Below, in pieces: positions 9,280 through 50,163 of a stretch of DNA of 64,000 nt. This stretch comes from Rhodobacteraceae bacterium LMO-JJ12 (GTDB taxonomy: Bacteria > Pseudomonadota > Alphaproteobacteria > Rhodobacterales > Rhodobacteraceae). Position 1 is the stretch's first letter, and every line of letters begins with the position of its first letter. The stretch lies in the NCBI GenBank assembly GCA_021555075.1, contig JAKGBX010000001.1, positions 1,488,001 to 1,552,000 on the forward strand, in the 5' to 3' direction. Both the position numbers and the translations under genes were made by a program. The notes under the pieces were generated by a model. It saw only the letters and a program-made list of their open reading frames with translations, was not told where the DNA came from and made no database searches.

Positions 9280-10061
9280 TTACCTGTAAACTCCGGGGTG
9301 CGTTTGTCGAGGAATGCGCCGACACCTTCGGCGTAATCGGCGCTTTCGCCACAGGCTTTCATGGCGTCGGCTTCCAATTCGAGGTGGCTTTCAAAATCAT
9401 TGGTTGCGGCGGCGTGGATTGCGCGTTTGGTTTGCGCATAGCCAAATGTTGGACCGGCGGCAAAACGGGCGGCCAGAGCGCGTGCCTCGTCCATCAGTTG
9501 GTCGTCTGGAATGGCCTTCCAGATCAGGCCCCAATCGGCAGCCTTTGCGGCGGGCAGTGGCTCGGCGGTGAGCGCGAGAGCCTTAGCACGGGCTTCGCCC
9601 AGAAGGTGGGGCAGGTGCCAGGAAGCGCCGGTATCGGGGATCAGTCCGACTTTTGAGAACGACTGAATGAACTTGGCGCTTTCAGCGGCGAGAACGATGT
9701 CGCATGCCAGAGCAACGGATGATCCCGCACCGGCCGCGACGCCATTCACAGCGCAGACCACCGGCATGTCCAGCGACCGGATCAGCCGCACCAGTGGGGC
9801 CCAGAAATTGCGCACGGTCGCGCCGAGATCAGGGGGTGTATCGGAGTTACGCGGATCGCGGTCGCCCAAATCCTGCCCGGCACAGAAACCACGGCCCGCA
9901 CCGGTAAGCAGAACGGCGCGTTTGCCGTCGTTGCGGGCAGATTCCAACGCGGCGCGCAAAGCGTGATGCATGTCTTCGTTAAAGGAGTTGAGCTTGTCAG
10001 CACGGTTGAGCGTAATCTCCACCCATTGCCCGTGATCTTTGACCAGAACTGTGTCGCCCAT
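9276..10061 (-). CDS. paaG: Enoyl-CoA hydratase/isomerase PaaG
   Basis: A 261-residue crotonase-family protein. In the pathway PaaG isomerises the ring 1,2-epoxide of phenylacetyl-CoA to the oxepin. The oxyanion-hole segment GFCAGQDL is near residue 60 and the second GVAAGAGSSVALACD loop near residue 110, followed by an IPDTGASW segment with the conserved Asp. The PaaG rather than PaaF assignment rests on sequence look and on its place next to paaI, so it is less certain than the family. It heads the minus-strand operon, divergent from paaZ. Confidence 0.88.
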   Translation of the reverse strand: MGDTVLVKDHGQWVEITLNRADKLNSFNEDMHHALRAALESARNDGKRAVLLTGAGRGFCAGQDLGDRDPRNSDTPPDLGATVRNFWAPLVRLIRSLDMPVVCAVNGVAAGAGSSVALACDIVLAAESAKFIQSFSKVGLIPDTGASWHLPHLLGEARAKALALTAEPLPAAKAADWGLIWKAIPDDQLMDEARALAARFAAGPTFGYAQTKRAIHAAATNDFESHLELEADAMKACGESADYAEGVGAFLDKRTPEFTGK

Positions 10062-10102
10062 TATGTCTCCTCCCTAAGCGTCCCGTCAGAATATCTTGCA
10101 TA

Positions 10103-27536: not shown

Positions 27537-27671
27537 TGTTTTGTCCCTTGTTTTGCTGGCGGGAATCCTTTGACATGGTGGCGCGGCAAATGCAACGTGA
27601 CCTCAAGTTAAGCTTGAATGGAGTCCTCGCAGGAAGCAGACTGGGAGGGGAACTCAGGGAGGAGAATAAAA

Positions 27672-28061
27672 ATGAAGAAAATCATGGGCTTGGCGGCGAT
27701 TGGGCTGTTGGCGATGGCGGGTGCTGCGATGGCGGACCCGGCGGAAGGCATCTGGAAAACCGAAGTGGATGATGGATCTTACGCGCACATCCAGATGACG
27801 AAATGCGGAACGAATGTGTGCGGAACAATTGCGCGTACCTTCAACGCCAGCGGTGAATACAACTCACCCAACAAGGGTAAGCTGTTGGTTCAAAACATGA
27901 AACCCGAGGGCAAAGGCTATTACGCCGGCAAAGTTTGGCGCCCGTCCAACAACAAGATCTATATCGGCAAGATGCAGGTGAGCGGCAACAAGTTGAAGCT
28001 CAAGGGATGCATCGCCGGTGGGATGCTGTGTTCGAGCCAGAATTGGACGCGGGTAAAGTAA
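27672..28061 (+). CDS. DUF2147 secreted protein, copy 1
   Basis: A 129-residue protein with a signal peptide (cut after AMA, about residue 21) and one DUF2147 domain. The GIWKTE opening, the CGTNVCG cysteine pair and the KGCIAGGMLCSSQNWTRV ending are the family signature. DUF2147 proteins are small periplasmic beta-barrel-like proteins of unknown role. The ATG at 27672 follows GGGAGGAG. It lies on the strand opposite the his genes, and a related second copy follows. Confidence 0.85.
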   Translation: MKKIMGLAAIGLLAMAGAAMADPAEGIWKTEVDDGSYAHIQMTKCGTNVCGTIARTFNASGEYNSPNKGKLLVQNMKPEGKGYYAGKVWRPSNNKIYIGKMQVSGNKLKLKGCIAGGMLCSSQNWTRVK

Positions 28062-48360: not shown

Positions 48361-48924
48361 CTAGGCCGATTTGCGCGCCAGCATGGTTGCAAACTGAAGC
48401 TGTGCCCCGTTGTGCATGGTGCCAAGGTCTTCGTTGTATTTGAGCATTTCCCAGCCCTGATAGATTGTGCTGAGCTGACCCTCACCCAGGGTGAACGGAA
48501 AGCCGACCGGGCAGGGATTTGCATCGGTATCCATCGCACAAACGATCAGATTATGGCCGCCGGGCAGGGTATGTTCTTGCATGTCGGCGAGAACGGCCCC
48601 GACCCGACCGGGGTCAAGAAACATCAGGGTCACGGTACAGGTAATGAATCCGTAGTCGGCATCCAATTCGGCCTTGTTGATATCATAGACGCGTGGATCA
48701 ATGTTGTTGATGTCTTCTTGCGCGACAATGGATTGCAGCATTTGAAGGGCATTGGTGTTGTTGTCCACTGCGGTGACATCAAAACCCAGCTGGCCCAGAT
48801 GCAGGGCATTGCGGCCATTGGAGCACCCCATGTCGAGTGTCTTGCACGGTGCAATATGCTGGCCGGCGTTGACCACCTCGCTATGCGGCGGGGTGATGCC
48901 GTAGCGGCTGTTCAGGTCTGTCAT
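48361..48924 (-). CDS. tehB: TehB-like SAM-dependent methyltransferase
   Basis: A 187-residue class I methyltransferase closely resembling TehB of E. coli, which detoxifies tellurite by methylation. SAM motif I reads LDMGCSNGRNA at 30-40. The TVTLMFLDP, PGGHNLIVCAMDT, PCPVGFPFTLGEGQL and WEMLKYNEDLG blocks follow the TehB order through to the C-terminal FATMLARK. No tehA exporter gene is adjacent. Its natural role may be methylation of another oxyanion or thiol. Confidence 0.9.
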   Translation of the reverse strand: MTDLNSRYGITPPHSEVVNAGQHIAPCKTLDMGCSNGRNALHLGQLGFDVTAVDNNTNALQMLQSIVAQEDINNIDPRVYDINKAELDADYGFITCTVTLMFLDPGRVGAVLADMQEHTLPGGHNLIVCAMDTDANPCPVGFPFTLGEGQLSTIYQGWEMLKYNEDLGTMHNGAQLQFATMLARKSA

Positions 48925-49252: not shown

Positions 49253-49334
49253 CAAAAAAAACGGCGGCGCTCTGGGAGGAGAGGCGCCGCCGTTAAAAAA
49301 TTGCCGAAATCGGGAGGAGGAGTGACCCCGGCAA
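49253..49334 (-). ncRNA. CcsR-like small RNA, unit 4 with terminator
   Basis: The last hairpin pair of the array. The first hairpin (49301-49334) closes with TTGCCG/CGGCAA and shows a CTCCTCCTCCC loop. The second (49261-49293) is a perfect 10-bp ACGGCGGCGC/GCGCCGCCGT stem with a CTCTCCTCCC loop, followed on the minus strand by eight T residues. It is therefore the terminator of the whole ccaF1-ccsR transcript. Confidence 0.85.
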
Positions 49335-49350
49335 ATTCTTTGGTCTTAGC

Positions 49351-49427
49351 GACAGTGGCACCCAGGGAGGAGGAGAGGGAACCACCGTCATTCACTATGC
49401 CGAAATCGGGAGGAGGTGACCCCGGCA
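49351..49427 (-). ncRNA. CcsR-like small RNA, unit 3
   Basis: Two hairpins. The first (49398-49427) closes with TGCCG/CGGCA and exposes CACCTCCTCCC. The second (49351-49389) has an imperfect GAC-GTGG-CC/GG-CCAC-GTC stem with a TCTCCTCCTCCC loop. The two-hairpin design and the anti-Shine-Dalgarno loops match CcsR RNAs. Confidence 0.85.
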
Positions 49428-49446
49428 CAATCTCGTTTTGGTTAGT

Positions 49447-49523
49447 GACGGCGGCATCCAGGGAGGAGGAGAGGATGCCGCCGTCTCTTGCAATGCCGAG
49501 ATCGGGAGGAGGTGACCCCGGCA
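49447..49523 (-). ncRNA. CcsR-like small RNA, unit 2
   Basis: The first hairpin (49494-49523) has the TGCCG/CGGCA closing stem and a CACCTCCTCCC loop. The second (49447-49485) is a perfect 13-bp stem, GACGGCGGCATCC with GGATGCCGCCGTC, with a TCTCCTCCTCCCT loop. The repeat distance to units 1 and 3 is about 95 bases. Confidence 0.87.
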
Positions 49524-49540
49524 CATTCTTCAAATTTTGC

Positions 49541-49617
49541 GGCGGCGGAACCTAGGGAGGAGGAGCGGTTCCGCCGCCATGTAACAGATGACCCAGGGAG
49601 GAGGAGAGGGGCACCTG
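49541..49617 (-). ncRNA. CcsR-like small RNA, unit 1
   Basis: The first unit after the DUF1127 stop. Hairpin one (49585-49617) has a CAGGTG/CATCTG outer and CCC/GGG inner stem; hairpin two (49541-49578) is a perfect 12-bp GGCGGCGGAACC/GGTTCCGCCGCC stem. Both loops carry CTCCTCCTCCC. Known CcsR RNAs are cut from the ccaF1 transcript and act in oxidative stress and C1 metabolism. Confidence 0.87.
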
Positions 49618-49631
49618 ATTCGTGAAACTGT

Positions 49632-49853
49632 TTAGCGCGTGCCGTAGACCGCCTCGTAGGCGGCGGCGCGCAGGTTGTAGGGCGACAGGCCGAGATCTGT
49701 CATCTCGCGCGATGACAAGGTGGCTAGTTCGGCACAGGTCTTGCGGTAGAGGCGATATTTGGCGAAACGCTCGGCCAAGGACGAAAACGCCGGAGCGAAG
49801 GCGGCTGCGCCTTTTGCCATCGCCATTGTCTTTGTGCTATCTGCGTATGCCAT
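49632..49853 (-). CDS. ccaF1: DUF1127 protein, CcaF1 homologue
   Basis: A 73-residue basic protein with a C-terminal DUF1127 motif (RYLYRKTCAELATLSSREMTDLGLSP-like, residues about 33-58, with ELATLS and DLGLS conserved). In Rhodobacter sphaeroides the matching protein CcaF1 (RSP_6037) binds RNA and influences maturation of the CcsR RNAs encoded after it. The same order is seen here: gene, then four CcsR units 15 bases beyond the stop. The ATG at 49853 has AGGAAGAG upstream. Identity as CcaF1 rests on this context. Confidence 0.88.
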   Translation of the reverse strand: MAYADSTKTMAMAKGAAAFAPAFSSLAERFAKYRLYRKTCAELATLSSREMTDLGLSPYNLRAAAYEAVYGTR

Positions 49854-49908
49854 CGGTCTCTTCCTTTTGGGCGATCCGCCCGATCCGTGTTTCTGTCTTG
49901 TGAACTAC

Positions 49909-49937
49909 ATATAGACAAATGCTGCAGGTGCGAAAAG
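49909..49937 (-). promoter_or_regulatory. Possible RpoH-type promoter of ccaF1-ccsR
   Basis: On the minus strand CTTTTC and CTATAT are spaced by exactly 17 bp, 56 bases before the ccaF1 start. Heat-shock sigma factors of Rhodobacterales prefer CTTG-like and CTATAT-like boxes, and ccaF1-ccsR depends on RpoHI/RpoHII in R. sphaeroides. The -10 fits well, the -35 only at CTT. Confidence 0.5.
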
Positions 49938-49949
49938 GCTTAGGACAGC

Positions 49950-49968
49950 AATGCTGCCATGCAGCATT
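49950..49968. repeat. Palindrome upstream of ccaF1
   Basis: AATGCTGC-CAT-GCAGCATT is an 8-bp inverted repeat with a 3-bp spacer, 13 bp upstream of the putative -35 box. The half-site ATGCTGCA recurs at 49919-49926 inside the promoter spacer. It may be a regulator site for ccaF1 or for the divergent mrp gene. Confidence 0.45.
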
Positions 49969-50163
49969 TGCATACGTGACGCTGGGGAAAGTTTAATCTA
50001 AACGGGTATTTACGATGCGTAATAAAGGTAAGGTCGTCGTGATATAGTGAGATGTTTGGCGGGTGGGGTGCGACACTAATAGGCATTAACAATACCCATT
50101 AGATCTTGAACTCTGCTGAAAAACCAACAGGGTCATTGCAAGCAGAAATTGGAGACGGACATT

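Follow-up and report, generated by a model that had tools for sequence, protein, structure and literature searches.

A probable ccaF1-CcsR RNA operon of Rhodobacteraceae bacterium LMO-JJ12 and its conserved composite control region

The window, a stretch of 64,000 nucleotides from the genome of Rhodobacteraceae bacterium LMO-JJ12, very probably harbors a ccaF1-CcsR (CIN1, cuckoo RNA) operon encoding a CcaF1-like protein and four anti-Shine-Dalgarno RNAs. The sequence analysis establishes the anatomy of the locus, its recurrence, stem covariation, loop constancy, RNA-family matches and a conserved composite control region; transcription, processing, pairing and targets of the window RNAs are predicted from relatives. 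The ccaF1-CcsR locus type is already known, and the new part is the composite control region. In the portions of the literature consulted, CcsR control is described only in terms of RpoHI/RpoHII. The roughly 70-base region, which is largely invariant, makes it possible to test directly whether carbon storage and redox sensing are linked to RNAs that block ribosome sites.

The first gene of the locus is a 73-aa open reading frame of ccaF1 type (49853-49632, minus strand) that matches the DUF1127 family (PF06568, E 3.4e-9, 36.7 bits against a cut-off of 23.3) and whose product is 31-59% identical to those of 15 array-preceding relatives. The first C-rich loop core follows 28 nt past its last codon on the same strand. 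Four DUF1127 genes are present in this genome, and a search with the ar14 model matched the array of the window copy only. Downstream of the array and on the same strand, we also noted a TehB-like methyltransferase gene (48361-48924, minus; PF03848, E 2.2e-65).

As the earlier note had proposed, the DUF1127 gene is followed by eight hairpins on the minus strand that group into four two-hairpin units with a pitch of about 95 bases; we measured pitches of 95, 96 and 93, with loop-to-loop distances of 41, 54, 40, 56, 40, 53 and 41. Unit 1 combines the weaker stem of hairpin 1 (49585-49617, minus) with the strong stem of hairpin 2 (49540-49579, minus), and both loops carry CTCCTCCTCCC. In unit 2, hairpin 3 (49493-49524, minus) displays the loop ACCTCCTCCC with a C-G closing pair, followed by hairpin 4 (49444-49488, minus) with CTCCTCCTCCC in its loop. 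Unit 3 is composed of hairpin 5 (49394-49431, minus), a near copy of hairpin 3, and hairpin 6 (49350-49390, minus), again with CTCCTCCTCCC. Unit 4 contains hairpin 7 (49295-49340, minus), another near copy of hairpin 3 with CTCCTCCTCCC in the loop, and the terminator-like hairpin 8 (49261-49293, minus) with CTCCTCCC. A tract of eight T (49254-49261, minus) directly follows hairpin 8, as claimed before, and presumably acts as an intrinsic terminator judging from its sequence; a simple terminator scan reported none in the array region, probably due to its stem and loop limits. The region from 49632 to 49240 folds with -172.6 kcal/mol compared to -116.0 kcal/mol (sd 6.3) for 100 mononucleotide shuffles, and five of the six copies of CTCCTCCTCCC in the 4.35 Mb genome lie within this array. 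Part of the array probably originated by tandem duplication, because hairpins 3, 5 and 7 are near copies of each other and units 2 and 3 share 80% identity. The idea that the stems differ strongly thus applies across genomes and is overstated for the window array. In a relative of the same genus (G001, locus L012), the array comprises two units with four loops in all.

To describe stems and loops across the family, we used 45 arrays found by their loop motif and containing 363 hairpins; they remain from 50 loci after removal of three duplicates, one single-loop locus and one locus whose DUF1127 gene lies on the wrong side. True arms formed 10.0 pairs on average compared to 6.5 for arms swapped between genomes, and 190 of the 363 hairpins exceeded the 95th percentile of swapped-arm pairing. 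In the first, second and last hairpins, each of nine positions of the stem was occupied by four to six kinds of standard pair, a count that favors pairing as each hairpin was placed in its best register, so that the swap test is the fairer of the two. Compensatory changes, whose absence would have spoken against the RNA, are therefore present. When stems were sought without the loop motif, 223 of 226 in these arrays, which were themselves found by the motif, had a loop containing CTCC, versus 4 of 31 in downstream stretches of equal length; this bears out the expectation of constant loops. The two-hairpin organization is likewise a property of the related arrays: the mean loop distance following an odd hairpin is 42.4 and that following an even one 56.4 (p 2e-21), and even stems are stronger than odd ones (p 2e-7). 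AU-richness of the spacers between units as an RNase E cue was unsupported (0.48 within versus 0.46 between units, p 0.08).

At the level of RNA families, the array passes the cut-off of Rfam ar14 (RF02344; 64.0 bits over 58.8, 49623-49488) and is outside the CcsR1 model (RF02791) by score. With a relaxed threshold, CcsR1 matches each unit once, giving four matches that all remain below the cut-off of 65.3 bits: 49628-49537 (37.5 bits), 49528-49443 (43.2 bits), 49432-49347 (30.0 bits) and 49336-49256 (30.8 bits). The E-values of the four matches are 4.9e-9, 2.4e-7, 2.3e-5 and 4.1e-5. Weaker matches below the respective cut-offs were obtained for ar7, Scr3202, 6C and others. The proposed equivalence to the ccaF1-CcsR1-4 layout is hence upheld, with the gene first, four two-hairpin units, a T-tract and one CcsR1 match per unit, each of them below the cut-off.

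Arrays of this kind recur in the family. Loops with the exact sequence CTCCTCCC were detected at array spacing, at least three per genome, in 80 of 198 family genomes, compared to 6 for a reversed control pattern, and many arrays escape this exact triplet loop pattern. We also examined DUF1127 loci picked without regard to array or promoter, namely the best 80 of at least 538 relatives, many of them close kin, of which 76 had at least 600 nt of downstream sequence. Among these, at least three loops were found downstream in 67 of the 76 loci and in none of the 80 upstream stretches; the first loop lies 15-29 nt past the stop codon in 60 loci, and loop counts range from 0 to 16 across the 76. 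The largest array seen comprises 26 loops (G190, L023, about 400-1640 on the array strand) and is assembled from 6.5 copies of a 140-base three-hairpin unit and 3.3 copies of a 47-base unit. Among genomes outside the family, two loops without an exact dyad or box 2 of the control region described below were observed in G045, and neither a two-loop cluster nor box 2 in G047 and G054.

The composite control element (49973-49920, minus) is located upstream of the DUF1127 gene. Across relatives, it consists of box 1 (TGCTGCATRGCAGCATTG), 12-13 intervening bases, box 2 (TTGTGCANNTGCAGCA) and a -10-like CCCATGTT or similar. In the window, box 1 reads TGCTGCATGGCAGCATTG (49949-49966, minus), its sole exact copy in the genome, and includes the PhaR-like palindrome CTGC-ATG-GCAG. 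It overlaps a dyad, ATGC-N7-GCAT (49959-49973, minus), of the LysR-type form T-N11-A, centered at about -66 from the presumed start. Box 2, which is TTTCGCACCTGCAGCA in the window (49920-49935, minus), overlaps the -35 element. Alignment to the consensus of the relatives places a -10-like CTATAT at 49909-49914 (minus) and a presumed transcription start near 49900 (minus; position 66 of the profile, where 65 of 70 loci have A).

This arrangement is highly conserved. In the 43 array loci, which are those of the 45 arrays with a DUF1127 start, at least 14 of 18 positions of box 1 were matched in 39 and at least 14 of 16 positions of box 2 in 42, with none in shuffles for either box; the spacing was 13 bases in 24 loci, 12 in 13, 14 in one and 4 in one. 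Among the best 80 of at least 538 DUF1127 loci, box 1 was present by the same thresholds in 78 and box 2 in 79 (shuffles 0 and 0), separated by 13 bases in 69 loci and by 12 in 9, so that both boxes stand 12-13 bases apart in 78 of the 80. When the 70 loci of this sample whose boxes are 13 bases apart were profiled, runs of invariant bases emerged.

Protein and RNAs seem to remain under shared control even when the gene and the array have separated, since the split operons in G119, G073 and G024 retain the composite promoter. In G119 (L216, L217) and G073 (L218, L219), one promoter copy leads into a CcsR1-like RNA of two hairpins without an intervening DUF1127 gene, while a second copy precedes a DUF1127 gene without an array. 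The RNAs score 53.2 bits (G119) and 50.0 bits (G073) with CcsR1, below the cut-off, and that of G073 passes ar14 at 60.0 bits. In G024 (L020), the promoter leads directly into a seven-loop array. Separately, we observed second ccaF1-like DUF1127 genes with the same promoter in G011 (L206) and G193 (L220); by eye, two hairpins stand behind the second copy of G193 and only a degenerate remnant behind that of G011.

Comparison of these sequences suggests control by a LysR-type regulator at ATGC-N7-GCAT and/or by PhaR at the overlapping half-sites, and the two are near-equal candidates. One explanation is that the region is a PhaR operator, from which the PHB-sensing repressor PhaR would be released by PHB granules so that the RNAs report carbon storage; we regard this as a serious possibility that stays somewhat short of probable. 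The CTGC-N3-GCAG of box 1 corresponds to the R. sphaeroides PhaR site, as far as the consulted part of the source describes it (PMC12542648). PhaR is encoded in the same genome as the window (TIGR01848, 150 bits) near a PHA synthase gene, together with two similar palindromes, and a palindrome two mismatches from box 1 is situated between the PHA synthase gene and a small gene preceding phaR, which is phasin-like by eye and gave no NCBIfam match. Both PhaR-like palindromes of this genome stand at L069 (about 1500-1550), between the PHA synthase gene and the small gene before phaR.

Further support for a role of PhaR comes from genomes that lack it. PhaR (TIGR01848) was found in 191 of 198 family genomes; PhaR-negative genomes of at least 90% completeness are G004, G115, G161 and G175, and the operon is known in G004 and G175. 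We compared 49 genomes, a subset of the array-bearing family genomes in which G014 was counted once. Left out were genomes with no anchored promoter, namely G016 and G021 (one loop), G036 (two loops), G145 (three loops, DUF1127 gene on the wrong side) and G024 (promoter too near the array); G001 as well as G119 and G073, both of which encode PhaR and were chosen for their strict-pattern match, stand outside this comparison. By eye, the PhaR-encoding G024 has kept the dyad and box 2 and lost most of the remainder of box 1. Joint loss of the box 1 left half and the box 2 right half occurred in none of 47 genomes with PhaR versus both of the two without it (Fisher p 0.00085), a contrast that involves only two PhaR-less cases and a test that ignores kinship. 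Among the PhaR-encoding genomes, all 47 of which have an anchored promoter, the dyad (at least 7/8) was kept in 46, the box 1 half (at least 4/6) in 43 and the box 2 half (at least 6/7) in 46 (Fisher p 0.0026 for box 2, kinship ignored). In G004 and G175, respectively, the box 1 left half is reduced to 3/6 and 2/6 and the box 2 right half to 2/7 and 0/7, with the -35 matched at 5/6 and 6/6 and the dyad at 8/8 in both. The strict composite was present in 93 of 170 good-quality PhaR-encoding genomes and in none of four PhaR-less ones. It was also present in the PhaR-negative G123 and G191, which are only 84% and 71% complete and may still encode PhaR, and absent in the PhaR-negative G034 (74% complete), G115 and G161.

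Several observations do not fit a PhaR operator. The third center base of box 1, which is one of the 18 scored positions and was thus asked for by the search, is G or A in 70 of 70 profiled loci, but C or T in each of the 20 palindromes detected, which come from 15 of 30 phaR loci. Box 2 has a center of four bases, and CTGC-N4-GCAG is not enriched at phaR loci (5 versus 6 shuffled), whereas CTGC-N3-GCAG is (39 versus 4 shuffled). Furthermore, box 2 is lost in G008 despite the presence of PhaR, the box 1 left half matches at most 3/6 in the PhaR-encoding G035, G064, G067 and G159, and the strict composite is absent in 77 of the 170 good-quality PhaR-encoding genomes, some of which may lack the operon altogether.

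Alternatively, the control region may belong solely to a LysR activator of the LsrB/VtlR type, which drives the rhizobial NfeR1 and AbcR1, with the PhaR-like halves being coincidental; to this, too, we would give slightly less than an even chance. The dyad is nearly invariant, each of its eight positions being conserved in 69 or 70 of 70 loci (from the best 80 of at least 538), and its ATGC half lies outside the search motif. It is retained in genomes with an otherwise degraded box 1 (G004, G175, G064 and G024). The loss of the other halves in PhaR-less genomes is, however, left unexplained by a LysR regulator acting alone. In rhizobia, the LsrB gene lies in the neighborhood of trxB, and in the genome studied here no LysR gene was seen beside trxB. 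The VtlR box GCAT-N3-TG-N3-T, as given in the consulted part of the source (PMC7486931), is absent from the consensus of the 70 loci. By position, the dyad, with its center some 66 bases ahead of the presumed start, agrees with the LsrB site TGCA-N6-GCAT reported at -72 to -60 of nfeR1 in the part of the source consulted (PMC10746234), and the window itself reads TGCA-AATGCT-GCAT (49972-49959), in agreement with TGCA-N6-GCAT, at a distance that rests on the presumed start.

We speculate that both regulators contribute. According to this working model, which taken as a whole is rather unlikely and is offered tentatively, ccaF1-CcsR across Rhodobacteraceae would be a carbon-storage and redox output in which a LysR-type activator at ATGC-N7-GCAT and PhaR at the overlapping half-sites jointly set the amount of anti-Shine-Dalgarno RNA; the control region would be a conserved unit that is kept when array and gene part, and hairpin number (2-26 seen) would tune the dose. 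A search of the open literature found, among the papers listed, no report linking PhaR to CcsR, CcaF1 or CIN1 and none linking LsrB to CcsR-type RNAs, a weak negative, as three founding papers on these RNAs lie outside its scope.

The note had named a candidate promoter of RpoH type. A TTG in the -35 element is important for both R. sphaeroides RpoH factors, according to the part of the source consulted (PMC3441632). Most relatives bear it in ATTGTG, which 44 of the 47 PhaR-encoding genomes match in at least five of six positions, and the earlier claim is plausible for them. For the window, RpoH control is doubtful because its -35, TTTTCG, lacks TTG; the same TTTTCG occurs at this position in G010, G077 and G141. 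A sigma-70 scan of the region gave no match.

In R. sphaeroides, ccaF1 is co-transcribed with CcsR1-4 from an RpoHI/RpoHII promoter and the transcript is processed by RNase E and CcaF1, as stated in the consulted parts of PMC10253847 and PMC8625941. By analogy, the window locus would yield one stress-responsive transcript encoding the CcaF1-like DUF1127 RNA-binding protein, followed by four two-hairpin RNAs at its 3' side. RNase E, with the help of CcaF1, would cut out these RNAs of 81-92 nt (by the extent of the CcsR1 matches), and their CUCCUCC(UCCC) loops would block translation by base-pairing with ribosome-binding sites of the GGGAGGAG type. The silenced mRNAs would plausibly be those for transport and catabolism. 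In R. sphaeroides, CcsR RNAs influence both stress resistance and central carbon metabolism.

GGGAGGAG occurs 15 times 3-10 bases before an ATG in the genome (reversed control 4), and one of these sites is the complement of the array itself. Pfam matches were obtained for all ten frames submitted: two DctP solute-binding proteins, an enoyl-CoA hydratase, a DUF2147 protein, a thioredoxin-like protein, a universal stress protein, an acyl-CoA dehydrogenase, a 2Fe-2S protein, TusA and a cation efflux protein. Of the other sites, two precede frames outside this set of ten and two precede frames too short for genes. The genes behind these sites are candidate targets, including the hydratase gene (site at 10059-10074, minus) and the DUF2147 gene (site at 27657-27674, plus) in the window, both by sequence match. 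A match alone says little on targeting because GGGAGGAG before ATG is present in 197 of 198 family genomes, whether or not an array was detected. As an aside, AACTTTGGGAGGAG stands ahead of the start codons of two different DctP genes (L052, L064), a possible sign of common control.

Rather than pairing with mRNAs, the loops could mainly be decoys for a protein recognizing the tail of the 16S rRNA, which we consider very improbable. GGTCAC precedes the loop core in hairpins 3, 5 and 7, and hairpins 3 and 5 read TCACCTCCT, which we take to resemble the 16S 3' end; however, TCACCTCCT is present in only 13 of 363 hairpins, and the usual loop, CUCCUCCC, departs from the 16S rRNA tail, CCUCCUUU. 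The 16S tail pattern was not found in this assembly. On the same count of 13 in 363, 16S-tail mimicry beyond the anti-Shine-Dalgarno core was ruled out. That the array is a repetitive coding stretch instead of an RNA deserves practically no credence: a 167-aa open frame does span much of it, but loop distances modulo 3 are 2, 0, 1, 2, 1, 2 and 2, no reading frame is kept from unit to unit because the pitches are 95, 96 and 93, and the stem covariation speaks against it.

Compared to known systems, R. sphaeroides ccaF1-CcsR1-4 and the window locus share a DUF1127 gene of about 71-73 aa with four two-hairpin RNAs downstream, CCUCCUCCC loops and a terminal hairpin. They differ in that the window array falls below the RF02791 cut-off and has a -35 without TTG; the composite upstream element is seen in the window and is not mentioned in the portions of the R. 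sphaeroides ccaF1-CcsR descriptions consulted. The ar14 sRNAs (NfeR1, Sinorhizobium; RF02344) likewise have CCUCCUCCC loops on variable stems, and the window array passes their Rfam cut-off. NfeR1 silences ntrBC by anti-Shine-Dalgarno pairing via the same loop motif, as described in the part of the source consulted (PMC10746234), and it has, like the window, a LysR-type T-N11-A site at an equal distance to the start, which is a presumed one in the window. In the same partial description, NfeR1 is a trans-acting three-hairpin RNA of its own, whereas the window array consists of eight hairpins behind a DUF1127 gene. The control region shares the palindrome CTGC-N3-GCAG with the PhaR (AniA) regulon, and box 2 is similar to CAATTGTGCACCGCAGCATTA, the PhaR site at mmgR of S. 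meliloti (PMC12542648 Table 3, source consulted in part). It differs from the palindromes at the phaR loci of the family in its center bases and, for box 2, in spacing.
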